From positions 44,656 to 108,655 of the forward strand of contig JAAHGF010000014.1 in NCBI GenBank assembly GCA_010672585.1: a DNA stretch of 64,000 nt. The letters run 5' to 3'. The notes beneath the pieces were generated by a model that had not been told where the DNA came from, made no database searches, and saw nothing but the letters and a program-made list of their open reading frames with translations. This document shows, in pieces, positions 1,245-19,096 of this stretch. A program made the position numbers and the translations under genes. Numbering within the stretch: position 1 is the stretch's first letter; each line of letters opens with the position of its first letter. The stretch comes from Okeania sp. SIO1I7 (GTDB taxonomy: Bacteria > Cyanobacteriota > Cyanobacteriia > Cyanobacteriales > Microcoleaceae).

Positions 1245-1365
1245 TATCAAATCCGCTTAATTTATTATCAAAAATGTTCCATCTGAGCGCTATCTCCCCA
1301 TCTCCCCATCTCCCCATCTCCCCACCCTCCCCACACTCTTTATCTAATGCTACCCGATTTGATAT
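1245..1365. repeat. Family B element overlapping a gene's 3' end
   Basis: Left end ATATCAAATCCGC, right end CCGATTTGATAT. The right end lies inside the final codons of the minus-strand gene ending at 1350, so the element supplies that gene's last residues and stop codon. The interior carries repeated CATCTCCCC units near 1300-1325. Confidence 0.65.
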
Positions 1366-3509
1366 GATGCCTCAGTGTCAACATCGCAAATATAGGCAAA
1401 ACCAGTTTTAGAACTTAACAACTCACCATTACCGCTGATAATAGCCCGACTACCGTCGAAAGCAACACCATAACCCCATTTCCCGTCTTTTGGTAAGTCT
1501 GAGGGTTGCAACTTCTGTTTTTGCTCCCATTTGCCATTTTCCAACTGAAACAGATAGACAGCACCGTAATCCCATGTACCATTAACACTAGCCTGAGATG
1601 CTCCCACAACTGCTACATTGCCTTTGATACCGACGGAACATCCGAAACCATCGTGTTGCTTTTGGTCATTAGCTTGAATCTTCTGAGATAAGTACCACAC
1701 ACCATTGTGTAATTCATAAATATAGGCCGCACCCGTATCTACTTTTCCTGATACACCAGAAAGATGTGCGCCTACAATTGCCCGATTGCCACTTACAGCT
1801 AACGACCAGCCACAGCGATCGCCAGAACCTAAGTCTGGAGGTTGAAGTAGCTGCTGCTGCCAATTGCCACCTTCTAATTGGAAAACATAAGCAGCACCAC
1901 AATTTTTTTTGCCTGGAGCATCAGCTAAATATGCTCCCACCATTGCTACATTACCCTCAATACAGACTGAGTAACCAAAACAATTGCCAGCTTCAAGGTT
2001 GTCTGGTTGCAATTTTTTGCCTTTTTGTACCCACTTACCACCTTCTAATTGAAAAACATAAGCAGCACCACAATAATTTTTTCCAGGAGCATCAGCTAAA
2101 TATGCTCCCACGATCGCAAGTTTGCCATCAATTGCCACCGAATAACCGAAATAGTCGCTAGCTTTTAAGTCCGAAGGTTGTATAATTTGTTTGTGCTGCC
2201 ACTGACCATCTTTTAATTCATAAATGTGAGCAGCACCCACATTATTTTTGTCCAAAGCACTAGCAGAATGCTGGCCGACAATTGCAAAGTTACCGCTGAT
2301 ATCTAAAGAGTGACCATACCCAGACATTTTCTGACCTTGAGGTTTGAGCTGCTGTTTTAACTTCCACTGACTGTTTTGCCAATGATAAATATAGGCATTG
2401 CCTTTACCATCATCCCCCACCAGCGCATAGTCACCATCAATACCCACAGCTTGCTTAAAAGCAAAATATTCGCTAGCACTCTTCTTGGACAGTTTTTGCC
2501 TGGGTTTTAATTTTTTGTCCAAAAGAGGAGCAGTTTGCTGCGCCCAATATTTGACATTGACTCCCTCGGGTTTATATTGAGAGCAGTAGAGACAGAAATT
2601 ATCTAGGTTTTCTACTGCTTGACCTGGTTTAGCTCCTTTATAACCAACGATCGCCCAACTACCTCCATACTCGAGATTACCTACCATTGTCGAACCAATA
2701 GAAGAACAAGCTGTTTTCATGTTCTGTTCTACTTCCGTGCCTGTATAATCTTTGGTAGCTATGGCAACTATTTCTCCTGCTTGTAAATCTTCGATGGTTT
2801 CAACGAACCTATCTACCTCCTCTGGTATCCCAGGATTAAAACTACCAGAGCTTTTCACTTGCCCATCTTTGCTGTCTAATACTATCAGATTCCAGCCAGA
2901 TTTATATCCTCCTTCTATAGCTAGAATTTTTCCGTTGAGGTGAATTTGTGCTTCTCCTCCTTGGGGGAGATAGTATGGTGCTGCGGCCAATATTGATGGT
3001 TTTGATACAGCTTCTACTGCAAAAGTTCCTAGATTTTCTACTACTTCTACCTCTTGGGTGTAGCTACTGCTGGTTTCTAACCAAAACATAGATTCATGGG
3101 CAGTGCCTGGTTCATGGCCTTTGATACCTATGAGGGTGTAGGATTGGCCAACTTTCAGGTTGTCTATTTCAGCGCTGCCTATGGTTTTAAAAGCAGCTTT
3201 GGCTTTATCTGTTAGAGGAGTAGATACGGCATCACCTTTGATTGTTAGGGCAACTATCTTTCCTTCTGGCAGGTTATTGATGAAATCAGCAAAGATGTCG
3301 CTGTTGCCAATAGGAGTATCAAATCTGTTACAAAATAGTAGTTTACCTGTGACTTCATCGAATACGGCCACATTGATACCCCGACTATAGCTGCCGAAGT
3401 TAATTTCTTGGCCATCGATAGAAATTTTTGCTTTAGGTTCTCCTCCTCCATAATATTTGGCTGTATAGCCATTGGATGTAGCAGTTATAGTGATTTTTTT
3501 GATTGCCAT
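1350..3509 (-). CDS. Protein with two ILEI/FAM3-like domains and a seven-bladed FG-GAP propeller
   Basis: Of 719 residues, about 28-145 and 190-310 are two divergent copies of an ILEI/FAM3 (GG) domain: G-x-N-V-A-V-F-D, then NLPEGKIVAL, then an ALTIKGD / IATKDY strand, closing with SYTLIGIKG / SWAIVGYKG. From about 345 to the end run seven FG-GAP_2-type blades (FGYSVAIDGKLAIVGAY...GAAYVFQLEGGKW), as in a closed seven-bladed propeller. No DxDxDG calcium motif is seen in the blades, and no signal peptide or membrane segment, so location is uncertain. Codons near 1365-1350 (SYQIG-stop) come from a family B repeat end, so the natural C-terminus may have been replaced. FAM3/ILEI domains are known in animal cytokine-like proteins and some glycan enzymes; the function here is unknown. 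Possible partner of the integrin-beta-like genes at 6455 and 8856. Confidence 0.85.
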   Translation of the reverse strand: MAIKKITITATSNGYTAKYYGGGEPKAKISIDGQEINFGSYSRGINVAVFDEVTGKLLFCNRFDTPIGNSDIFADFINNLPEGKIVALTIKGDAVSTPLTDKAKAAFKTIGSAEIDNLKVGQSYTLIGIKGHEPGTAHESMFWLETSSSYTQEVEVVENLGTFAVEAVSKPSILAAAPYYLPQGGEAQIHLNGKILAIEGGYKSGWNLIVLDSKDGQVKSSGSFNPGIPEEVDRFVETIEDLQAGEIVAIATKDYTGTEVEQNMKTACSSIGSTMVGNLEYGGSWAIVGYKGAKPGQAVENLDNFCLYCSQYKPEGVNVKYWAQQTAPLLDKKLKPRQKLSKKSASEYFAFKQAVGIDGDYALVGDDGKGNAYIYHWQNSQWKLKQQLKPQGQKMSGYGHSLDISGNFAIVGQHSASALDKNNVGAAHIYELKDGQWQHKQIIQPSDLKASDYFGYSVAIDGKLAIVGAYLADAPGKNYCGAAYVFQLEGGKWVQKGKKLQPDNLEAGNCFGYSVCIEGNVAMVGAYLADAPGKKNCGAAYVFQLEGGNWQQQLLQPPDLGSGDRCGWSLAVSGNRAIVGAHLSGVSGKVDTGAAYIYELHNGVWYLSQKIQANDQKQHDGFGCSVGIKGNVAVVGASQASVNGTWDYGAVYLFQLENGKWEQKQKLQPSDLPKDGKWGYGVAFDGSRAIISGNGELLSSKTGFAYICDVDTEASYQIG

Positions 3510-3552
3510 GTTAATTTTATGTCTGCTTTATTGGTTGATTTTATCTGATATT

Positions 3553-3897
3553 GACATCCTCCCGACGCTGCTCTACGAGACAGGGCGGGATTCCTGCTCC
3601 ATCGCCAATAGAGGCTTTCTATTGCCTCTTGACAGAGGAGCTGCGCTAATATAGCACCCGCCTTTCCTACGGAATGCTCCGCAAACGGGGATTTACTCCC
3701 AGATGGTCTTAAAGTTGCTCCACAGAAAAGCCAGCGCGGTCTTGGGGGTCTCCCCCATGAGCGACTGGCGCTGACACTGCGAGTCCCGCAGCCAATATAT
3801 TTATACTTGGGTTTATATCACGGTCATGGTAGATACCACACTCTGGACAATCCCACTGTCTGATACTTATCAGAAACACTGCTATTAAAAGGAACAA
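3553..3897 (-). pseudogene. tnpB C-terminal remnant with IS200/IS605-type right end
   Basis: On the minus strand, QWDCPECGIYHDRDIN followed by INILAAGLAV is the zinc-ribbon/RuvC tail of a TnpB protein; everything upstream is missing. Downstream (3553-3700) is the non-coding right end with a GTCGGGAGGATGTCAA terminus and a stem formed by CCCGACGCTG / CAGGGCGGG. A 21-bp insert (TCCTACGGAATGCTCCGCAAA) sits at 3665-3685. Dead element. Confidence 0.8.
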
Positions 3898-4500
3898 TGC
3901 TTTTTAGTCGATCTGGAACTTTTACTAGAAAGAAATAGAGCTAAATTGACATCTCCAGGGGTTGAAACACCCTGGATTCTGTGGTTAACCCACCGCAAAT
4001 GGGATAAATCCACATTTGCTTTAAGCCTATCAACAGACTTCTAGTCTCCTCGGCATAGACAAAAATCTAGCTGTGAGCTTACTTTCAGAGTGGTTTTACT
4101 CAAGGTGTTGGAGCAATCTTCTCGCTGCTCTAGCTGCCTACTTGCTTTTCGGTGCCGAATGCGGAGCTAACAGCCGTCGTAGGAAATCAAGTCCCCATCT
4201 CCTGTCCGCCGGAATCTCACCGCAAAGCGCGGTCTTGTCATGGCGACAAACCTTGCTCTTACTTGTTATGGTTTCTAGTATAACAGACTTTTACTCCGGG
4301 TTAAAACCCGCGTGTCATCATTCAACCAGCCGTTAAAACGGACTGGCTAACTTTCTCCCGATGTTTTTTAGGTTTAACGGAGATAATTATAGCAGTTAAA
4401 TGTATATATGTCGAGATGAAAAAGTCATATTAAATATTTAATTTTTGTTTGTCATTTGAGTCTTGACTGTAGGTTTTGTTTTTGATCGAGTCCCAATAGT
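3898..4500. other. Non-coding stretch, unclassified
   Basis: No convincing gene. A hairpin CCAGGG-gttgaaaca-CCCTGG lies near 3955-3975 and a GGGTTAAAACCC palindrome near 4298. Part may be further IS-end debris, but I do not recognise it. Confidence 0.4.
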
Positions 4501-4538
4501 AGTTTGCGGGGGAGCGCGATCGCGCTCCCCCGCAAACT
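4501..4538. repeat. Perfect 38-bp palindrome centred on a HIP1-like core
   Basis: Two 19-base arms with no loop and no mismatch, GC-rich and centred on CGCGATCGCG. It is followed two bases later by a second perfect hairpin. Not linked to a gene end within 900 bp. Confidence 0.9.
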
Positions 4539-4540
4539 CA

Positions 4541-4573
4541 AAAAAGCGATTAAACTTAGTTTAATCGCTTTTT
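4541..4573. terminator. Perfect 16-bp stem hairpin ending in a T run (terminator-like)
   Basis: Arms AAAAAGCGATTAAACT and AGTTTAATCGCTTTTT with a one-base centre. It ends in five T on the plus strand and, by symmetry, on the minus strand, so it could terminate in both directions. No gene ends nearby. Confidence 0.45.
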
Positions 4574-4579
4574 ATACTA

Positions 4580-4731
4580 ATATCATGTCCGTTGGTATCG
4601 GAGCGTGTATAAAGTTGGGGAAATATCTAGCGCCATTAATGGTTTTTCCTTCTCTTAAAGCTTCTTCCTTCTTCAAACTTCGGTCTTCCTTACCTTCACG
4701 CTTACAATACCGATGCTACCGGACATGATAT
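4580..4731. repeat. Family A inverted-repeat element (152 bp)
   Basis: Ends ATATCATGTCCG and CGGACATGATAT. Nearly identical in length and sequence to the copy at 31027-31178; both begin TTGGTATCGGAGCGTG and end GATGCTAC before the terminal repeat. Non-coding. Bases 4732-5086 hold HIP1-type GCGATCGC sites but no gene. Confidence 0.85.
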
Positions 4732-5086
4732 GAGAAATAAATAAGAATTATATCATGTTCGGATGATCACTTATAATAAAGCCAGAATCATTACAGTAGA
4801 AGTATTCAAACTTTATGGCAAAAAAGATAGCGATCGCAAACTACCTTGATGTTCATATGATCGCTTATAATTGAATAGCTCTAGCTTGAGGCCACCAATG
4901 GAAGCAAGTTAGTCCTTTAGATTGTTTTTGAGTGAACAGATATTAATAACCCATCCAGAGTTTTTCTTCTTTCAAGGTCTTATCAATGCACTTTTTTCAG
5001 GCAGGCGATCGCCTTTTTTCACAGTTTTCCTTTTGGGATTAATCAAAGCGATCGCCCCTTATTCTTCTAACAGTACCGATAACTTA

Positions 5087-5509
5087 TTAAGGTTGGCCTG
5101 CACCAATCAGAGATACTGTGACTTCTAGGGGAGTTAAAGCATCCGGACCTGTTGCGCCAAAAGCGTTGCAAACTTTACGTTCCTCTCCTGGATATACGAA
5201 ATCTCCGAAGCGAAAGCTTTCAAACGGTTCAAATTCCATCGTCCCTGAATTTTGTGTCTCAAATTCGCGGTACACAAGAACTGCCTCTGTCGCATTTATG
5301 TTATAGGGAACCATCTGCAAGAGACCTTCATAGAGTGCGCTTGCTACAACGCACTCTTGTCCATATAGTATATAAGAAACTGCCTGGTCTGGTGATACTG
5401 TCACTTGATAGGTATCTCTGTAATCAGCTTTGGCTAAACCTACATTGGAGCCAAAGGCTACTGTTATGGCCAAAATTAGACAAGCTACAATCTGGAGTGC
5501 TTTTTTCAT
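5087..5509 (-). CDS. Small secreted protein of unknown function
   Basis: 140 residues starting MKKALQIVACLILAITVAFG, a typical Sec signal peptide (positive N-terminus, hydrophobic core, small residues to a cleavage near A25-A28). The mature part has two cysteines (CVVASA and KVCNAF) that could pair. No family recognised. A purine-rich GAAAGGAAA lies about 11 bases before the ATG. It stands alone between repeat-rich spacers. Confidence 0.7.
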   Translation of the reverse strand: MKKALQIVACLILAITVAFGSNVGLAKADYRDTYQVTVSPDQAVSYILYGQECVVASALYEGLLQMVPYNINATEAVLVYREFETQNSGTMEFEPFESFRFGDFVYPGEERKVCNAFGATGPDALTPLEVTVSLIGAGQP

Positions 5510-5599
5510 TTTCTTTTGAGTTTCCTTTCTATTACTTTGTTTTTGAGTGGGCCGATATTAATCATCCAGAATTTTCCTTTTTTCAAGGCTTTAATTCTA

Positions 5600-5780
5600 T
5601 GAGTCTTGACATACTCCCGACGTTGCGCTTGAGCGACAACGCGGGATTCTTCAACCCGCACGCGGAGTTACAGTTTATACAGAGGTGATGCCCTCCCCCT
5701 GTGTTCTTATATTATAACATGGTCGCTTTCCCATACGACGTTCCCTTGCAGGAGAACGCGGAACTTCTCGCTATTTTTTG
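5600..5780 (-). mobile_element. Orphan IS200/IS605-type right end
   Basis: Contains the signature GACATACTCCCGACGTTG with a self-complementary loop to CAACGCGGGATTCTTC, then CAGAGGTGATGCCCTCCCCC. The same signature occurs at 3553, 51030 and, inverted, at 16500-16625. No transposase is attached. Confidence 0.6.
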
Positions 5781-5929
5781 TTAATTTCTGTTCCACTTCA
5801 TATTAAGACGTTTCTAGGTGGGGTTTTATGATTTTTTTCTGGAGCTAACAACAAAAACCGAATAATTGGACAAAAATTGACATAATTTTAGATATTCCTT
5901 TCAGCGATCGCCCTTGAGCATTTTTGTCT

Positions 5930-6276
5930 TCCGTTCTACTAAACTTACCCAAACTTACCCAATAGGGTTTTGGAGCTAGCTTCCTGCTTCTGTGAGAACC
6001 ACTGACCGTAGTCTGTAACTTATTCTCTCCACAGGCTTAAATTCGCTCTTGACTCAAGCTACTGATACACATAGTTTTTCAGGTTGATAGCAGCATTTCC
6101 TACGGAATGCTCCGCAAACAAATCTCTATCAGCTTCAAAACCACATTCACTACACTTATAAGTTCTCAAGTGTAACGGCATTTTCTGTTGATGCCCACAG
6201 TTTGAACATATTTGAGAACTTGGGTAAAATCTATCCGCTATTACTAATTCACTGCCGTACCATTCACATTTGTATG
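5930..6276 (-). pseudogene. tnpB C-terminal remnant with 3' flank
   Basis: Minus-strand codons 6276-6062 read YGSELVIADRFYPSSQICSN, CGHQQKMP, YKCSECGFEADRDL and NAAINLKNYVYQ with stop TAG at 6059-6061: the zinc-ribbon and catalytic-Asp tail of TnpB. An in-frame 21-bp insertion (6098-6118) adds seven codons between RDL and NAAIN, absent from the homologous tail at 16809. The flank to 5930 (GGAGCTAGCTTCCTG, TTCCGTTCTACTAAACTTA) matches those at 16640 and 20280. The N-terminal four fifths of tnpB are missing. Confidence 0.85.
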
Positions 6277-6454
6277 TAAGTTAACGTTTAAACTCATAAA
6301 AGCCACAATCAGCTTATTTTAATACTGTTGATAGCCCCACCTTTCTGGCAAAAGAGCGATCGCCATTCGGCCATCAGTCAATTTCCGTTCTACTGAACTT
6401 ATCCCAACTTACCCAACCGTTGGTCACGCTCCGCGATCGCTCAACGGATAGAGA

Positions 6455-7981
6455 TTACAAAGAGACTTGAACATCAACAACCAAATCCCCAATTCCTAGA
6501 GCACGAATGGTGACTTCATCACCGGTGCCGAGTCCCGAGTATTTGAAGGTAATGTTGGTTGTTACTTCCGAGCCTGGGGCTACATCTTCAAAACGGTCTG
6601 GCTCGATGCTTTCCACATAACCGTAGTCATCGTTTACCGCTACAATAGTCAAGTTTTGGTTGATTACCTCTAATGCTTCCTTGAGAGCCTCAATCAAATT
6701 TGAACTATCAGCCTCTAGCTCAACTACAGCTCCTACCCCTAACTGACTCACCAAGTCATTATATGTGCTTACCACATTGGTGGTTGCCAGGAAGATAGGC
6801 ACTACATTAGCTTCATTGATTGCCTGCTTCACCTGAGGGACAGAGGGAAAGTCCTCACCAGGGTCTAAAACTGCGTCTCCATTGTTGGGAGTACCTCCGG
6901 GTGGGTCCCCTGCCTTTTTATAGGTAGCATCTGTGGATACAATTGCTACCCGACGAGTATTCTGTCGGAAATTTAACTCACTTTCTGCCCGTACAGCAAC
7001 TTGCATTAGAGCTGTCAACGATGACTCTGGATAGTCACATCCACCATTAGCCGTCAACTTGTCAACCGCTGCCTCGAATGCAGCCGAGTCTGTGGTCAAA
7101 GGTAACTCGGTTCGATACACATACTCACCTGGATTATTATCTTGAAAAGTCGCTAGACCAAAAGTTGTATCGGGTTGGAGAGCGCGCAGTTCTTCCACCA
7201 AGTCAGGAATTAGTGCTCGCAGAACTGGTAAATCATCTCGGTAGGAGCCAGTCACATCTTGGGTCAACATTAGATCTAGAGGCAACGTGCCTGAATCTTC
7301 AGGAATCGGAATTGTGACTGGCAGAAGGAATTTTTCGTCAGGGGTAATGATGATTTGGCATTTCTCATCGCCCAACTTGCATACGAGGGGTTCGAGACCG
7401 ATAGCATCAACGTATGAACCCTTGCTATCAGGAAACTCTCCTATATTATCAAAGCTCAGGCGAGTCGTAGAACTGTCAGCTTGAACACCATAGCTATAAT
7501 CCTGCCAATTGCTTTGAGATAAACCTTCACCACTTGCCTCCAGTTTAACGATCTCTGTATCTCCCCACTTAACATTCAGCTTGTTGTCTGAGACATAAGG
7601 ACGGGGGGAGAATGAAAAAGTGAGTTCGTAGGTCTGACCCGCTTCCGTCGTGATATCCTGATAAATTTGAGTTACTTGCTGAATGCTGTCAAGCTGCACA
7701 TATTGCTTCCCATCTTTGGCTTTGGGAATTACTGATTCTGGGGGGAGATAAGGGATCAGATCCTCTCTGGTTTCACGATCGATTTCCATCAAGTAACCCT
7801 TGGATAAGTCCCACCCTTTAAATGAGGGTTGAAAATCTACTGTACCATAGTCACCATTAAGGACTGGCTCTTCAAAACTGCCATTGACTACTAAGTTATC
7901 AGCAGCGGCCGATGACGGACTGATATTCAAGCAGGTAAATGCCAGTAGCACTGACATTACCCAAGGTAATATTCGTTTCAT
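6455..7981 (-). CDS. Secreted integrin-beta-like protein (hybrid/beta-I head) with N-terminal DUF642-like domain
   Basis: 508 residues. Signal peptide about 1-27 (MKRILPWVMSVLLAFTCLNI). Residues 30-200 form a DUF642/choice-of-anchor type beta-sandwich (VNGSFE...GKQYVQLDS...YELTFSFSPRP). Residues 205-508 follow the integrin beta-head plan: a hybrid N-half, an inserted I-like domain, a hybrid C-half (VTIRALGIGDLVVDVQVSL). MIDAS residues D242-T244-S246, E319 and D351 are present, as are the ADMIDAS pair D249-D250 and SyMBS-type D281, D316 and P318. GGCDYPES corresponds to integrin NLDxPEGG, and DFPSV and DSSN are also shared. It ends exactly after the hybrid fold: no EGF modules, no membrane anchor. 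Likely exported and cation-dependent; ligand unknown. Confidence 0.85.
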   Translation of the reverse strand: MKRILPWVMSVLLAFTCLNISPSSAAADNLVVNGSFEEPVLNGDYGTVDFQPSFKGWDLSKGYLMEIDRETREDLIPYLPPESVIPKAKDGKQYVQLDSIQQVTQIYQDITTEAGQTYELTFSFSPRPYVSDNKLNVKWGDTEIVKLEASGEGLSQSNWQDYSYGVQADSSTTRLSFDNIGEFPDSKGSYVDAIGLEPLVCKLGDEKCQIIITPDEKFLLPVTIPIPEDSGTLPLDLMLTQDVTGSYRDDLPVLRALIPDLVEELRALQPDTTFGLATFQDNNPGEYVYRTELPLTTDSAAFEAAVDKLTANGGCDYPESSLTALMQVAVRAESELNFRQNTRRVAIVSTDATYKKAGDPPGGTPNNGDAVLDPGEDFPSVPQVKQAINEANVVPIFLATTNVVSTYNDLVSQLGVGAVVELEADSSNLIEALKEALEVINQNLTIVAVNDDYGYVESIEPDRFEDVAPGSEVTTNITFKYSGLGTGDEVTIRALGIGDLVVDVQVSL

Positions 7982-8112
7982 ATCTGATGAGATGAGTTGT
8001 CGAAAAGTTTTCAGTTTCCAGCGTAACTTCAGAAAAGCTAAGTGTCAATACCGATACACATTTTTTTTGACCGCTGCTGTATTGTCAGTGTACAGTAATT
8101 TGAGACAAAAAT
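7982..8112 (-). promoter_or_regulatory. Conserved upstream block of the paralogue family (copy 1)
   Basis: About 130 bp upstream of the gene is nearly identical to the blocks at 10356-10482 and 12902-13030. On the minus strand all three keep TTGACA (here 8048-8043) about 65 bp before the ATG, a possible -35 box; the -10 is not obvious. No strong Shine-Dalgarno sequence. Confidence 0.45.
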
Positions 8113-8378
8113 AGGACTTACGCATGAACCCTATTGGTAGTGGACCAACACTGCTAAAATGGTGAAATAAGAGTAGGTTGGGTTGAGGAACGTTAGCGGA
8201 GCTTATCCGTTAGGATAAACCCAACAATAGCGAGGTTTTGTTGGATTTCCCTTCGGGAAACTCCGCTAACACTCCGTTCTACCCAACCTACATTTTTAGG
8301 CGTGTCAGTCCAGTAGGGTGTGAAGCGCGTTAGCGTAACGCAAAAAACCCTACATCTATTGCCAGTGCCTAAGTCCTG
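8112..8378. repeat. Family C element carrying a nested insertion
   Basis: Outer ends AGGACTTACGCA and CTAAGTCCT. Inside lies a second inverted pair, GTAGGTTGGGTTGAGGAACG and CGTTCTACCCAACCTAC, which looks like another repeat inserted into the first. Confidence 0.6.
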
Positions 8379-8421
8379 AAAAATACACCCTTCCGTTTCT
8401 GGAAAGGGTTTAATGTTAACT

Positions 8422-8760
8422 TTACCGAATAATTAAGGTAAAAATCCTCTCCTTTAAAGGAGAAAAAAGCGGTCGTAGCGGAGCTTCCCGTAGGGTGGGA
8501 TGGCGTTAGCGGAGCCATATCCAATCGACCAAGAGAGAAAAAATTTTCCTTTTATTCAATCCTCTTCCTTTTAGGGAGGGGTAATTATCCATTAGAGTTG
8601 TTGGGAAATAAAAATTGAACAATGCTCAAAAGCTTATTCTATAAGGTTTTCAGGATTCTAGGGCTAAAAAACGCTATAAACTTTGACCAATAAGGGTTTT
8701 AGCCATTTTTTTAGCTTAATTCCCAACAACTCTATTATCCATTATCCATTATTGAACGAC
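8422..8760. repeat. Family E element (E2) interrupted by a family H element
   Basis: Starts TTTACCGAATAATTAAGGT and runs through CTCTCC / GGGAGGGG arms to AATTATCCATTA. It is then split by a 140-bp element at 8594-8733 with ends AGAGTTGTTGGGAA and TTCCCAACAACTCT, after which TATTATCCATTATTG resumes. Family H therefore jumped into an existing E copy, at a TA-containing site. Confidence 0.7.
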
Positions 8761-8855
8761 TGTCCTAACTCTGGCGATCGCTTCTCTGTACCTACAGATT
8801 CTCAGACAGGTGATACGGCTGACACCACGCTCCGCGATCGCTCAACGGATAGAGA

Positions 8856-10355
8856 TTACAAAGAGACTTGAACATCAACGACCAAATCGCCAATTCCTAG
8901 AGCGCGAATTGTCACATCATCTCCGCTACCTAGTCCAGTATCTTTGAAGGTGACATAAGTTGTTAATTCCGAACCAGGAACAACATTTTCAAAGTAGTCC
9001 GGTTCGATGCTTTGTACATAACCGTACTCATCATCTACGGCCACAACAGTCACAGTTTGGTTTAATATCTCTATTGCTTCCAGTACAGCTTCTACCAAAT
9101 TTGAACTGTCAGGCTCTAGTTCGACTACAGCTCCTACCCCTAACTGACTCACCAAGTCATTATAGGTGGGTATGAAATCTCTGGTTACTAGGAATATGGG
9201 AAGGATATTAGCATTATTAATTGCGTCCTTCGTTTGGGCCACAGAAGGATAGTCTTCTGCCTCATCCAGAACTGTATCTCCATTATTTGGCGTACCTTCT
9301 GGATAATCCCCTGCTTTCTTGTAAGCGTCATCTGTAGAGATAATAGCAATCCGACGAGTCTCATCTCGGAATCCTAATTCGCCATCAGCCCGTAAACCAA
9401 CTTGCATCAGAGCTGACAAGGATGACTCGGGGTAGTCATATCCTCCTCCAAGAGTGGCTAACCCTGCAACTGCTTCCTCAAATACGCTACTGTCACTCGT
9501 CAGAGGCAACTCCGTCTTGTACACATAATAATCAGGAGTTCCATAAATCTTCTTGTCTGTGAAACTTGCCAGACCGAAGTTTGTATCCGGCTGGACAGCT
9601 TTCAATTCTGTCACTAAGTCAGGAATCACTGTCTTGAGAGTTGGCAAATCATCTGAGAAGGAACTGGTCAAGTCTTGGGTGAGGATTAAATCCACAGGCA
9701 GTTCCCCTGCATCTTCTGGAATCGGAATTGTGACTGGCATCACAAATGTTCCATCGGGAGGAATGATAATCGTACAATCATCATCCCCCAAATCACAATT
9801 GAGAATTTCTAGGCCAATCGCGTCAATTAAGGAACCAAGACCATCAGGTGTCTCGTTGAGATTATCAAAGCTAATGCGAGTTTCAGTGCCAGTTGCTTTA
9901 ACGCCATAGCTATAATCCTGCCAATCGCTTTTAGATAAACCTTCCCCATTTGCCTCCAGTTCAGCAATCCTGGTATTTCCCCAATGGACGTTCAGCTTGT
10001 TTTCTGGGTTGTCTGGACGGGGGCTGAATCCAAAGGTTAATCTGTAAGTCTTATCTGCCTCAGTGGGAACATCCTGATAGATTTGAGTTACTTGATTTAA
10101 ACTATCGAGTTCCACATATTGTTTCCCATCTTTGGCATTGCTCGTTCCAAAGATATCGCGGTCTATTTCCATCAAGAAACCCTTGGACAGTTTCCAGCCA
10201 TTAAATGAAGTTTCGTAAGTTAGTGCTGTGTCGATCACTGGATCTTCAAAGCTGCCATTAAATACTAAGTTATCGGCAGCGGCCGATGATGGACTGATAT
10301 TCAGGCAGGTAAATGCCAGTAGAACTGACATCACCCAAGGTAATATTCGTTTCAT
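8856..10355 (-). CDS. Secreted integrin-beta-like protein, tandem paralogue
   Basis: 499 residues, same plan as the gene at 6455-7981 with an identical signal peptide core. DUF642-like domain about 30-185; hybrid/beta-I head about 190-499. MIDAS D228-T230-S232, E310 and D342; ADMIDAS D235-D236; SyMBS-type D267, D307 and P309. FGLASFTDK closely resembles integrin beta (IGFGSFVDK), and PIFLVTRDFIPTYNDLV resembles the integrin IFAVT segment. The 3' flanks of both genes share CACGCTCCGCGATCGCTC, so the duplication included gene, promoter block and tail. No membrane anchor or sorting signal seen. Confidence 0.85.
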   Translation of the reverse strand: MKRILPWVMSVLLAFTCLNISPSSAAADNLVFNGSFEDPVIDTALTYETSFNGWKLSKGFLMEIDRDIFGTSNAKDGKQYVELDSLNQVTQIYQDVPTEADKTYRLTFGFSPRPDNPENKLNVHWGNTRIAELEANGEGLSKSDWQDYSYGVKATGTETRISFDNLNETPDGLGSLIDAIGLEILNCDLGDDDCTIIIPPDGTFVMPVTIPIPEDAGELPVDLILTQDLTSSFSDDLPTLKTVIPDLVTELKAVQPDTNFGLASFTDKKIYGTPDYYVYKTELPLTSDSSVFEEAVAGLATLGGGYDYPESSLSALMQVGLRADGELGFRDETRRIAIISTDDAYKKAGDYPEGTPNNGDTVLDEAEDYPSVAQTKDAINNANILPIFLVTRDFIPTYNDLVSQLGVGAVVELEPDSSNLVEAVLEAIEILNQTVTVVAVDDEYGYVQSIEPDYFENVVPGSELTTYVTFKDTGLGSGDDVTIRALGIGDLVVDVQVSL

Positions 10356-10703: not shown

Positions 10704-11110
10704 GGCGTTGCTGATTTTGGGTATGATGCAAGCCCCCCTAACCCCCCAATTTTGGGGGGAATAAAACTCTAAAAGTCCCCCGATTTTATCCCCCTCCCGT
10801 CCCCCGATTTTATCCCCCTCCCGTCCCCCGATTTTATCCCCCTCCCGTCCCCCTTAGAAAGGGGGAAGCCAGAGGATGCTTCGCTTTTGAAAGATGGGGA
10901 AGCCAGAGGATGCTTCGCTTTTGAAAGATGGGGAAGCCAGAGGATGCTTCGCTTTTGAAAGATGGGGAAGCCAGAGGATGCTTCGCTTTTGAAAGATGGG
11001 GAAGCCAGAGGATGCTTCGCTTTTGAAAGATGGGAAAGCCAGAGGATGCTTCGCTTTTGAAAGATGGGAAAGCCAGAGGATGCTTCGCTTTTGAAAGATG
11101 GGGAAGCCAT
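10704..11110. repeat. Family D element with two internal tandem arrays
   Basis: Begins GGCGTTGCTGATTTTGGGTATG and shares TTTTGGGGGGAATAAAACTC with the copies at 22924 and 27243. It then expands into three 24-bp units (10777-10848) and seven 34-bp units starting at 10865, 10899, 10933, 10967, 11001, 11035 and 11069 (core AGCCAGAGGATGCTTCGC). The right terminal repeat is missing. It sits in the pseudogene that follows. Confidence 0.85.
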
Positions 11111-11521
11111 AAGTACCGAAACTATCGGGTGTTTCGTTGAGATTATCAAAGCTCAGACGAGTGGTAGCACTTGTGGCTTCGAGGTCGTAGGTTTAACGAA
11201 GTCAGCAGCCAGCAGTTAACCCACCCCTAACCCCTCCCAGGAGGGGAAGTAGAGGATTTGAGCAACTATCCAAAAATATTGCGCCTTAAAAGGCGGGGTT
11301 GCGCGACCCATATTATTTTGATTAACCTCCCACTCAGTCTTAGAAAGACCTTCACCACTTTTCTCCTCTTGGGAGACTAAAGTATCTCCCCAAAACACGT
11401 TCAGCTTATTTTCTGAAACGTCAGGACGTGGCGAGAATGCAAAGGTGAATTTGTAACTGTCCAGTTCTACATATTCCTCCCCATCTTTAGCATTGCTTGC
11501 TAATAAAACTATAGGAAGCAA
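11104..11521 (-). pseudogene. Wrecked fourth member of the paralogue family
   Basis: Reading the minus strand from 11500, SNAKDGEEYVELDS joins directly to KFTFAFSPRPDVSENKLNVFWGD, so the segment equivalent to QVTQIYQDVPTEADKTY is deleted. After GLSKTEWEVN the frame is broken by a family F repeat (11196-11325). The DUF642-like fold then resumes at 11195 (ATSATTRLSFDN...ETPDSFGTY) and ends at the family D insertion. The signal peptide and all C-terminal domains are gone. It abuts the intact paralogue ending at 11522. Confidence 0.9.
11196..11325. repeat. Family F dispersed repeat inserted in the pseudogene
   Basis: Contains CCCCTCCCAGGAGGGG, GGCGGGGTTGCGCGACCC and the TTTAACGAAGTCAGCAG flank. 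Related copies lie near 31905-31985 and, inverted, at 41335-41438. Confidence 0.65.
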
Positions 11522-12901
11522 TTAGCTTGCAGGAGCAGCTTGGAGTTCCCCACTTCCCTCGATCGTCAAGATGTTGACATCTTCCGTAGTGTGATCGGTT
11601 TCTGGATCTAAACTGGTCTCTTCCTCTATTTTGATTTCAACACCGTTATTCGTTAAGTTTTGATACCGCAGTCCAGCACTATCTGCACCGTTGTACGTGG
11701 CGATGGCCGCAATCAACTGTGGCCCTTGATCATAACCGCTCAAGCCAATATTGACAAAATTTTCATCAATACCGCTGACAATTTGAGCTTGATACTTATG
11801 ACCTGACCAATTGCCGGCATCACTTGCTTCAATAGCTAACCAACCAATGGTTTCCTCAGTGTGACCATCAGTTTTGATCTCCTCTTCTTGCATGGCCACT
11901 TGGAAGCTATCAGTAGTGGCTGGTTGTTGGCGAGTGTAAACAAAATCAGGGCCGTTGCTGGTCTGTAGCTCTGTAAATACTACTGGAGAAGCACCAAACT
12001 CGCTGCTGAAGTTCACTGTATCGAAACTGCTACTGCCCAAGTTCGAGCCAACGGTTGTTGATGTATCATGGACTCCCACTTCCAGAACAGTGCCATCATC
12101 AAGTTTCCATTGTCCAGCTTCTAGGACTATGAAACTGAGGGTTTCTGTTGTATGGGTGCCATCAAAATTACTAGGTTCCTGCAGTCGGACATCAAAGCTA
12201 TTGCTGGTGATGTTGCTCAAGCGTACTGCTACAGGGTCTGCGCCGAGGAAGGAAGGAGGTAAGGCTAAGACGACTGGAGCAGTAAAGTTATGGCTGAGAC
12301 TAACCGTTTGTATTTCATGGTTCAGGTTGGAAATACGGCCAAATTCGCCAATGACTGCAAGAGACTTCTCCACCACGCTTACTGCATCAATATAGCTACC
12401 CATACCATCTGATATCTCATCAAGATTGTCAAAGCTCAGACGAGTGCTGGTGCTAGTGGCTTTGAGATCGTAGGTATAAGTTTCCCATTCAGTATCCGCT
12501 GCTGTTTTACTGAGATTGGCAACTACGCTATCTCCCCAACCTACATTCAGCTTGCTCTCAGGAGTGTTAGGGTTACCCTTAAATGCAAAGGTAAGTTTAT
12601 AGGTCTTACCCGCTTCAGTGGGAATATCCTGATAAATTCCAGTCACACTATAACTGTCCATTTCCACAAGCTGTGACCCCTCAAAGGGCTTGCTTACCCA
12701 TTTACTATCAATTTCAATTACCAGTCCATCAGATAAATCCCACCCTTCAATTGAATGTTTGAAATCGACAAATTCGACTTCGGGTGTTTCAAAGCTGCCA
12801 TTGACTACTATATTATCGGCAGCGATCGCTGATGAAGGACTGATATTCAAAAAGGTAAATGCCAGTAGCACTGACATCATCCACGTTAATATTCGTTTCA
12901 T
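11522..12901 (-). CDS. Secreted DUF642-like protein with a duplicated lectin-like C-terminus
   Basis: 459 residues. The signal peptide (1-28) and DUF642-like domain (about 30-180) are paralogous to those at 6455 and 8856. From about 185 the protein is unrelated to them: no beta-I domain, but two copies of a roughly 115-residue module (NFTAPVVLALPPSFLGADPV...FDVRLQEPSNFDGTHTTETL and FGASPVVFTELQTSNGPD...FQVAMQEEEIKTDGHTEETI), plus a third partial copy (GPQLIAAIATYNGADSAGLR...VEIKIEEETSLDPETDHTTE). The spacing resembles H-type lectin-like repeats, but that is tentative. It shows C-terminal domain exchange behind a constant secretion and anchor module. Confidence 0.8.
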   Translation of the reverse strand: MKRILTWMMSVLLAFTFLNISPSSAIAADNIVVNGSFETPEVEFVDFKHSIEGWDLSDGLVIEIDSKWVSKPFEGSQLVEMDSYSVTGIYQDIPTEAGKTYKLTFAFKGNPNTPESKLNVGWGDSVVANLSKTAADTEWETYTYDLKATSTSTRLSFDNLDEISDGMGSYIDAVSVVEKSLAVIGEFGRISNLNHEIQTVSLSHNFTAPVVLALPPSFLGADPVAVRLSNITSNSFDVRLQEPSNFDGTHTTETLSFIVLEAGQWKLDDGTVLEVGVHDTSTTVGSNLGSSSFDTVNFSSEFGASPVVFTELQTSNGPDFVYTRQQPATTDSFQVAMQEEEIKTDGHTEETIGWLAIEASDAGNWSGHKYQAQIVSGIDENFVNIGLSGYDQGPQLIAAIATYNGADSAGLRYQNLTNNGVEIKIEEETSLDPETDHTTEDVNILTIEGSGELQAAPAS

Positions 12902-17203: not shown

Positions 17204-19096
17204 TTACAAATTTCGATAAATAACATAATTAATCAATTGTTTGAGAAAGCGACGGTCTTGCAGAGACGAACCCCAATTTTCTCCCGGTTGTAAAGGAGAT
17301 TCAGGTTTGAGAAAATCCATCGACTCAAAGATATTGTCAGCTTGGTTGGCGAGAGTTCGAGCTAAATACCAACCATGGTCAATACTACCGCAACGCTTCA
17401 TTTCTTCTAAAATAAACTCAATTTGTTCTGCTTTTTTCTGTTCTCGTGGCAGGGCCAAAATTTCTAAAATCCGATCCGCGGCGTTGCTGTTAGCAATAAC
17501 ATGATTCAACATAATTGTGCGTTTACCTTCATAAATATCTCCCCCTATTTCTTTACCATAGGTTTTCAGGTCTCCCAAGATATTCAGCAGATCGTCTTGA
17601 ATCTGAAAAGCAATCCCCAGAATCATCCCAAACCGAGTTATATCTGCCAGAGGTTTAACTAGCTCCGTCAAATTTGCCGTAGGGTGTCCAATAATTAGAC
17701 CAATCCGCAAAGGAGTCATAAAGGTGTACCAACAAGTTTTCTTGACACACATAGTAAAATAATCTTGGTCTGTAAGCTGGCCTGTATTATTAGCTACCCA
17801 GTCCAACTCCATTGCTTGCCCTTCCACAGATTGCTGTGCCATAAATTCGATCTCGTGCAAGACATTAAGAGTTTTTTGTATCCCAATCGCCGATAGGTTT
17901 TCCAGCAACAGACCAACGGCTAAAACATTAGTAGCATCACCAACATTAATGGCCCGAGCTACCCCAATGGCGTGATGCAGAGTTTCCTTACCCCGCCGAG
18001 ATTCAGAACCATCTTCTATATCATCATGTATTAAAAAAGCATTATGATATAACTCCAGAGCTGCTGCTGTTGTCAAGGCCCGATCTCCCATTCCTCCCAT
18101 TGCCCTTGCTGCACTAATACACATTGTGGGTCTCAACATCTTCCCCTTACGAAATGGGTAATCTTTCAGCATTTCGTATAACGGAGCATAACCTCCGGAT
18201 ATATCGCGCTTAAAATCAATAAACTGCATAATTCTGCCAGTAATTGCTTGTCGAGATTGTTGCAATGTCTCATTAATAATAGTCTTATCAAACTGTGGTT
18301 TCTCTGCATCTGGAGGATTTACAATACTCTCCGCTTCATCTGGTAGTTGTATACTACCTCCGTTGGGCAATGGTATATTAGTTGCTTTACCCCCAGACCA
18401 ACCATTACTATCATCTTGTTTTGGTTGGTTAACTTGAGTTTGCTCAACCTTAACTTCTGGAGCAGTTTTCACCATTACCAATTGGCTTTTACTATTGCTA
18501 CTTAGATCTTCAATGTGACCATTACCATTAGTGCTAGCTTCAATGTGACCATTACCATTACTACTTAGATCTTCATTGTGACCATTACCATTAGTGCTAG
18601 ATTGATGTCCATTAGCTACTAGAGTAGTTTCTTGGTTGCTTTGAAGATTATTTTTTTTCGCTTCCTGTTCGTTGGGTAATTCTATAAAAATTTTCACCAA
18701 GACTGAATCAGCTTGACCATTACTATGACCATTACTATGACCATTACTATGACCATTACTATGACCATTAGAATAGCTTTCATTTGCTAATACAACAGTT
18801 CCTTCATTTCCTTGGAATTCTATTTTTTCAGCTCTCTGTCCTTTTGGCATTTCTATGGAAACTGTCAATGAGACTGAATCATGTTTACTATTGGAGGAAT
18901 AGTGATCGCTTTTTGCTTGATTAGAAGTAAGCTGCTGGTCACAATGGATATCTGCCTTACCGTTAGAGGAAATGGCCATTTTTAGCTTAGAAGCAAACTT
19001 GCTGTTTTGAATATCAGATTGGCCTGTTAACAAATAAAAAAAACAGAACGTTATACAAAATAAAAATATGGCAAACATAAATTTTTTATAGCTCAA
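17204..19096 (-). CDS. Membrane-anchored polyprenyl diphosphate synthase with long low-complexity linker
   Basis: 630 residues, about twice the family length. Residues about 5-25 are one hydrophobic helix (FMFAIFLFCITFCFFYLLTG). Residues 30-270 are low-complexity, with SNGH repeated five times and ...STNGNGHIE... repeats. From about 275 it is a trans-isoprenyl diphosphate synthase of GGPP type: KGKMLRPTM, first Asp-rich motif D358-D359-I-E-D362, second motif D501-D502-L-L-N505 (Asn replacing the usual third Asp), KTYGKEIGGD and a basic GKRT. It would condense IPP with allylic diphosphates at the membrane. The start is TTG at 19096; the first ATG (19078) would cut the membrane helix. It reads divergently from the SCP2-like gene at 19356. 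Confidence 0.8.
   Translation of the reverse strand: MSYKKFMFAIFLFCITFCFFYLLTGQSDIQNSKFASKLKMAISSNGKADIHCDQQLTSNQAKSDHYSSNSKHDSVSLTVSIEMPKGQRAEKIEFQGNEGTVVLANESYSNGHSNGHSNGHSNGHSNGQADSVLVKIFIELPNEQEAKKNNLQSNQETTLVANGHQSSTNGNGHNEDLSSNGNGHIEASTNGNGHIEDLSSNSKSQLVMVKTAPEVKVEQTQVNQPKQDDSNGWSGGKATNIPLPNGGSIQLPDEAESIVNPPDAEKPQFDKTIINETLQQSRQAITGRIMQFIDFKRDISGGYAPLYEMLKDYPFRKGKMLRPTMCISAARAMGGMGDRALTTAAALELYHNAFLIHDDIEDGSESRRGKETLHHAIGVARAINVGDATNVLAVGLLLENLSAIGIQKTLNVLHEIEFMAQQSVEGQAMELDWVANNTGQLTDQDYFTMCVKKTCWYTFMTPLRIGLIIGHPTANLTELVKPLADITRFGMILGIAFQIQDDLLNILGDLKTYGKEIGGDIYEGKRTIMLNHVIANSNAADRILEILALPREQKKAEQIEFILEEMKRCGSIDHGWYLARTLANQADNIFESMDFLKPESPLQPGENWGSSLQDRRFLKQLINYVIYRNL

Follow-up and report, generated by a model that had tools for sequence, protein, structure and literature searches.

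The 9.48-Mb genome of the cyanobacterium Okeania sp. SIO1I7 contains a cluster of three genes whose products resemble the two chains of animal integrins, and this cluster is the subject of the present analysis. It lies in a stretch of 64,000 nucleotides (contig JAAHGF010000014.1, positions 44,656 to 108,655), called the window from here on, and consists of one gene for a propeller protein and two genes for beta-like proteins, all on the minus strand (table 1). An earlier note on this DNA had described integrin-alpha-like and integrin-beta-like architectures encoded side by side and suggested that the products could form an adhesion complex. The strand and the places of the genes are as described there, but "side by side" is a loose expression, as about 2.9 kb and an open reading frame (ORF) of 140 amino acids (aa) separate the propeller gene from the nearer beta-like gene. 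Our results show that the C-terminal part of both beta-like proteins is truly related to the ligand-binding head of animal integrin beta chains, and that the pairing of this head with a propeller gene is not conserved.

Table 1. Features of the gene cluster and its flank, in window coordinates
Feature	Position	Strand	Description
719-aa propeller protein	1350-3509	-	two ILEI (FAM3-like) domains followed by a seven-bladed FG-GAP_2 propeller; no visible signal peptide
Propeller part (about residues 340-715)	1365-2492	-	without DxDxDG calcium loops
140-aa small protein	5087-5509	-	signal-peptide-like N-terminus; no family over cut-off
Beta-like protein 1, 508 aa	6455-7981	-	signal peptide, DUF642, hybrid/beta-I/hybrid
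Integrin-beta head of beta-like protein 1 (about residues 199-507)	6461-7387	-	
Beta-like protein 2, 499 aa	8856-10355	-	signal peptide, DUF642, hybrid/beta-I/hybrid
Integrin-beta head of beta-like protein 2 (about residues 184-498)	8862-9806	-	
101-aa ORF	11216-11521	-	by eye resembles part of the neighbours' DUF642 region; possible remnant copy
459-aa sister protein	11522-12901	-	DUF642 and H-type-lectin-like stretch; signal peptide similar to those of the beta-like proteins

The beta-like proteins and their integrin-beta heads

Both beta-like proteins match the Pfam families Integrin_beta (E 6.4e-28 in protein 1, E 5.2e-29 in protein 2) and DUF642 (E 4.1e-10 and E 2.6e-9, respectively), in each case over the cut-off. 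Human integrin beta-7 was matched at E 1e-19 by a single-sequence search, and a profile of 14 cyanobacterial relatives aligned colinearly with human integrin beta-2 at E 1.8e-54. This alignment spans profile positions 7-321 of 329 and so covers both hybrid halves; the same profile also matches the integrin beta-7, -1, -3, -6 and -8 chains. The AlphaFold2 model of beta-like protein 2, built on an alignment of cyanobacterial sequences only, has a mean predicted local distance difference test score (pLDDT) of 74, being poor in residues 1-78 and mostly at 80-95 in the head, where it dips to 50-58 at residues 271-280 and 301-310. All 50 Protein Data Bank (PDB) fold matches listed for this model are integrin beta chains, the top one at E 9.2e-27, with template modelling (TM) scores to the target of up to 0.73. 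The plan proposed in the earlier note, that of secreted proteins with a C-terminal hybrid half, beta-I domain and hybrid half, is therefore borne out by Pfam, profile alignment and fold, and the structural comparison that it had recommended returned integrin beta heads at the top. Signal peptides and leaders were called, here and below, by hydropathy sum only.

As in metazoan integrin beta chains (PF00362), the hybrid half, beta-I domain and hybrid half are colinear, and the beta-I domain with the residues of the metal ion-dependent adhesion site (MIDAS) lies inside the hybrid domain. Unlike those chains, the window proteins carry DUF642 in front of the head, have no PSI, I-EGF or beta tail family at E<=1 (Pfam), and stop at the hybrid half, with no transmembrane part found among Pfam families (no transmembrane program was run).

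The metal sites were compared in an alignment of human beta-2 with 34 cyanobacterial rows, which include the window pair and their two orthologues in the sister Okeania genome, G002. The names and numbers used are those of the MIDAS, the site adjacent to it (ADMIDAS) and the synergistic metal-binding site (SyMBS) of integrin beta chains. The Asp, Ser/Thr, Ser and Glu of the MIDAS are each present in 34/34 rows, and the last MIDAS Asp in 32 of the 33 readable ones. The Asp pair of the ADMIDAS is kept in 26/34 and 31/34 rows, and in the SyMBS the place of Asp151 is conserved in 34/34 and that of Asp209 in 32/34. In comparison with metazoan integrin beta, the cyanobacterial heads keep the ligands of the MIDAS, most of those of the ADMIDAS and some of those of the SyMBS, and these sites may be occupied by metal.

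Two loops differ from their metazoan counterparts. The long loop of beta-2 that bears two Cys residues, the specificity-determining loop, is shorter and without Cys in 34/34 cyanobacterial rows. The second is the alpha-docking loop, from which a basic residue (Arg261 in beta-3) plugs into the alpha propeller; it is shortened to GDPPGG and GDYPEG in the window pair, compared with GDGKLGAIL in beta-2. In this alignment the window pair has neither the basic docking residue nor the long cysteine-bearing loop.

The two beta-like proteins are paralogues of 69-70% identity with the same signal peptide. The ratio of nonsynonymous to synonymous substitution rates (dN/dS) relative to G002 is 0.10 for protein 1 (12 substitutions), 0.41 for protein 2 and 0.25 for the propeller protein, and it is 0.24 between the two paralogues. 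From these few substitutions, all three reading frames look to be under selection relative to the sister genome, and both kinds of gene look to be maintained in this pair of genomes, though the propeller copy of a further relative, G001, is broken. The tandem arrangement leads to an explanation that we consider possible but unlikely, in which the beta-like proteins form a homo- or heterodimer together, or join the DUF642/H-type-lectin-like sister protein in a secreted lectin-like complex. The paralogues share the signal peptide and DUF642, and the signal peptide of the sister gene is similar; however, two beta heads at one locus occur only in the window and its G002 orthologue among the flanks scanned. 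The H-type-lectin-like stretch of the sister protein scores just under the Pfam cut-off, and no beta head was found in that protein by Pfam scan.

Spread of the head among bacterial proteins

The genome samples searched for the head overlap and include the genome of the window itself. PF00362 matches were present in 14/59 relatives and in 17/386 genomes of the phylum sample. The beta profile matched at E <= 1e-8 in 78/388 genomes of the order sample, 27 of them with a match >140 bits and 51 with only weaker ones (<=97 bits), and at E <= 1e-40 in 14/388 genomes of the class sample. Among 72,556 plasmid records there were two with a relative at E <= 1e-10, from Vibrio gigantis and from Rhodobacteraceae. 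Human beta-2 was the one eukaryotic sequence in a tree of 43 rows, where its branches are long and the fork that it falls in is not resolved.

The head, or its beta-I part alone, was found on DUF642, RTX, Calx-beta, cadherin-like/PPC and He_PIG proteins, as well as on TPS+CHAT, lipase-like, subtilase and PEP-CTERM-like proteins, and the RTX-type proteins occur with or without lipase-like domains. These many architectures fit a stand-alone module. They could also be taken to mean that the heads, instead of being adhesins, serve secreted hydrolases or conflict proteins as modules for regulation or targeting, and that the window pair would be enzyme-less offshoots, considering that lipase-like, subtilase and CHAT domains are joined to the head in relatives. 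We regard this as distinctly unlikely: the short relatives consist of little beyond the head and a PEP-CTERM-like tail (one of four tails over the Pfam cut-off), and the window proteins have no enzyme domain over the cut-off in family scans.

Several individual proteins illustrate the range of these combinations. In genome G040, an integrin-beta head shares a protein of 1627 aa (L031:7359-12242) with a TPS secretion domain and a CHAT domain. An integrin-beta head, a lipase-like domain and RTX repeats occur in single polypeptides at L034:8586-12368, L148:7220-11077, L150:4662-7976 and L152:5232-9071. Two VWA proteins that match integrin beta in part (L038:9126-10718 and L040:6716-8761) have ricin-lectin-like (below cut-off) or beta/gamma-crystallin domains as the partner stretch. 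On Vibrio gigantis plasmid p1, the head lies behind a subtilase domain at the start of the record (L180:2-2029), where the plasmid table shows no gene.

The propeller protein and the gene neighbourhood

The propeller protein contains seven stretches of FG-GAP_2 (Pfam, E 5.9e-64) and, in addition, two stretches of ILEI (FAM3-like; E 1e-43), which the earlier note had left unnamed. Its sequence relatives in the PDB up to E 1, namely FAM3, POMGNT1 and a cell-surface hyaluronidase, are all found through the ILEI part. The model of the protein (pLDDT 78, predicted TM score 0.59) has integrin alpha heads as its top PDB fold matches (E 5.1e-12), mostly with 11-17% identity and TM scores to the target of <=0.62, and the WD40 protein Fbw7 follows closely at E 5.1e-10. 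The seven-bladed FG-GAP propeller proposed earlier is therefore confirmed, as is the nearness of its model to integrin alpha heads, and at the level of the predicted fold the protein is an integrin-alpha-class propeller, though a remote one.

The earlier note had named as caveats the missing signal peptide, the missing DxDxDG loops and the repeats of the region, which are tandem repeats, and all three hold. The hydropathy sum gives no hydrophobic leader, and a hidden one was ruled out since an in-frame stop is the seventh codon upstream. The DxDxDG motif occurs 0 times in the window propeller and six to eight times in each of two other propellers. Thigh and calf domains and a membrane anchor were not found by Pfam and hydropathy (no transmembrane program), and the ILEI domains are present instead. 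In the bacterial FG-GAP proteins of Chouhan et al. 2011, as described in PMC3192720, each of the seven blades has the calcium motif; the window propeller is likewise seven-bladed and of FG-GAP class with integrin alpha as its nearest PDB folds, but it belongs to the FG-GAP_2 class and has no DxDxDG loops. A Cage-motif pattern, written as a regular expression from the description in the same paper, matched once in the window propeller and not at all in two calcium-loop propellers, and it is non-discriminating. The window's genome has a second FG-GAP_2 propeller (C32) with a leader-like N-terminus and, on another contig, a more alpha-like propeller of 1126 aa with seven FG-GAP stretches and DxDxDG loops (L080:6509-9889, G000:C33).

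The pairing of propeller and beta-like genes was surveyed in the flanks of every match >140 bits with the beta profile, which gave 36 cyanobacterial loci including the window; weaker matches (<=97 bits) and L161, L162 and L163 are not among them. Ten of the 36 (L075-L078, L155-L158, L177 and L178) have the beta-I part only, without the N-terminal hybrid half, L159 is truncated by a contig end, and the Calx-beta loci L068, L072 and L079 align poorly in the hybrid halves. Flanks are short in total at L032 (5.8 kb), L035 (9.8 kb), L152 (9.4 kb), L159 (10.2 kb) and L176 (7.4 kb), and on one side at L068, L069, L149, L154, L178 and L079. Blade profiles were made from 30 and 12 blades, so that FG-GAP_3/VCBS propellers could escape them.

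A gene with at least three blades was found at three of these loci, namely the window, its G002 orthologue and G199, and none in the fetched flanks, some of them short, of the other 33. Two of the three are orthologous, and adjacency of the two kinds of gene was seen only in the window and G002. One ORF with a single strong blade lies in the G173 flank; neither of the two plasmid loci has a multi-blade propeller, and no blades were found near ten fetched weaker matches (<=97 bits). Searched in 61 genomes of the family, the propeller gave matches in 19, mostly partial. In G001 an interrupted copy, 90% identical, lies on an 8.1-kb contig, with a polyprenyl synthetase gene on one side of it and a DUF642 gene on the other; no beta head is present on that contig, and the rest of the genome gave just a short VWA-type match. 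G008 has a near full-length relative, 39% identical, whose neighbours are unseen because its contig measures just 3.5 kb, and no PF00362 match was found in this 85% complete genome. A conserved alpha-beta gene pairing was therefore rejected, and the survey of co-occurrence and synteny went against the expectation of the earlier note. Next to the broken copy in G001 is an ORF (L160:5183-5773) that by eye resembles a transposon-borne TnpB.

These results bear directly on the proposal that the propeller protein joins the beta-like proteins in an alpha-beta adhesion complex like that of integrins. The nearest PDB matches of both folds are integrin head subunits, the genes are close together on one strand here and in the sister Okeania genome, and by a rough hand estimate about 0.2 close pairs are expected in 17 genomes, against two seen (window and G199), so some clustering is possible. 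On the other hand, both beta-like proteins start with a signal peptide, neither an export signal nor calcium loops are visible in the propeller, the alpha-docking loop of the beta-like proteins is shortened and the cysteine-bearing loop missing, the pairing is not conserved and no full beta head was found in G001 and G008, which have the propeller, and the propeller's fold match is remote, with Fbw7 close behind. Such a complex, unsupported on each of these counts, is in our judgement extremely improbable.

Tandem repeats in this region occupy positions 1-675, 1292-1333, 10775-10853 and 10862-11109. The first, at the left end of the window, is an 85-bp repeat of 7.9 copies with 98% match; at 10775-11109, 24-bp and 34-bp repeats, which account for the greater part of a mechanically called 126-aa ORF, lie between the beta-like genes and the DUF642/H-type-lectin-like gene. 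Of 24 further ORFs of at least 150 aa to the right, 20 were scanned and one had no family; the others mostly belong to ordinary families of the cell, among them carbamoyl-phosphate synthase, DnaK/GrpE, type IV pilus proteins, glycosyltransferases and a sensor kinase. A polyprenyl synthetase at 17204-19096 has about 300 additional N-terminal residues, and its top NCBIfam match, family 2 encapsulin cargo prenyltransferase, is under the cut-off of that family. A promoter and terminator scan gave counts near those of shuffled sequences (25 against a mean of 21.1, and 10 against 10.5) and no evidence of an operon.

Probable single-chain binding and the origin of the integrin head

On balance, the beta-like proteins are probably tandem-duplicated, secreted, single-chain metal-dependent binders that act independently of an alpha chain, the propeller being their neighbour by accident. 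They would be exported as single chains; in the manner of I domains, the MIDAS Mg2+ of the head would take an acidic group on a ligand. The N-terminal DUF642 would fix the protein to extracellular polysaccharide, either that of the sheath around the filament or that of a neighbour, and no alpha partner would be needed for such binding. The propeller protein would be a separate ILEI/FG-GAP_2 protein, probably cytosolic, with an unrelated function. According to the account in PMC7351488, I domains generally bind an acidic ligand group via MIDAS Mg2+, and in TRAP/MIC2 of apicomplexans a MIDAS-bearing I domain works in a single-subunit adhesin, which we propose as a parallel to the beta-like proteins.

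Several observations weigh against single-chain binding. Asn207 of the SyMBS is kept in just 2/34 rows, most of which have Gly. Lys or Arg stands at the alpha-docking place in three of 33 readable rows (GDGKKAGI, GDGRKAGI and GDGREAGI), and a basic residue is close to it in others, as GDR in seven RTX-type rows (L076-L078 and L155-L158) and as ARL in L151 and L152. In G199 a calcium-loop FG-GAP propeller lies about 10 kb from the beta-like gene, with ORFs of both strands between them. The calcium-loop propellers of G199 and G000:C33 are likewise without a visible leader, and the absent signal peptide of the window propeller does not exclude other export routes. Sugar binding by DUF642 would follow by analogy from the plant family and from family names. 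Because Lys/Arg docking loops are kept and the G199 pair exists, some members of the family might still use a propeller. In the furthest extension of this idea, which seems to us very improbable, the hybrid/beta-I head would have served bacteria as an adhesion module of its own before there were integrins, and a few cyanobacteria (such as G199 or the species with Lys/Arg) would already pair it with a propeller, as a prokaryotic forerunner of the alpha-beta head. The G199 propeller itself (L079:13035-16376) is a seven-bladed FG-GAP protein with calcium loops.

Proteins of cyanobacteria that resemble integrin beta have been known in print since 2009, with a further report in 2011, as the earlier note had supposed in saying that the families may not be new. 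Integrin beta chain-like proteins of cyanobacteria are tabulated in PMC2651865, and a homologue from Trichodesmium erythraeum without EGF repeats or membrane segment is described in PMC3192720 (2011). The window proteins are like the latter, as far as that description goes; measured against the same description, the fusion to DUF642 and the tandem pair are seen in Okeania. Among the open-access titles listed in literature searches, none was on DUF642-fused heads or on a survey of bacterial beta heads. What is added here is the DUF642 architecture, the spread of the head through many architectures and the conservation of its metal sites, and the beta-like proteins represent a new architecture of a known, little-studied bacterial family.

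The result checks the attractive but weak inference that takes gene neighbourhood as the sign of a bacterial integrin. The origins of integrins are usually told from eukaryotes. If single-chain binding is the correct explanation, a soluble bacterial head that has the hybrid domain and the metal site without an alpha chain would let us ask whether the binding head or the heterodimer is the older, and the action of a beta head alone would become testable.

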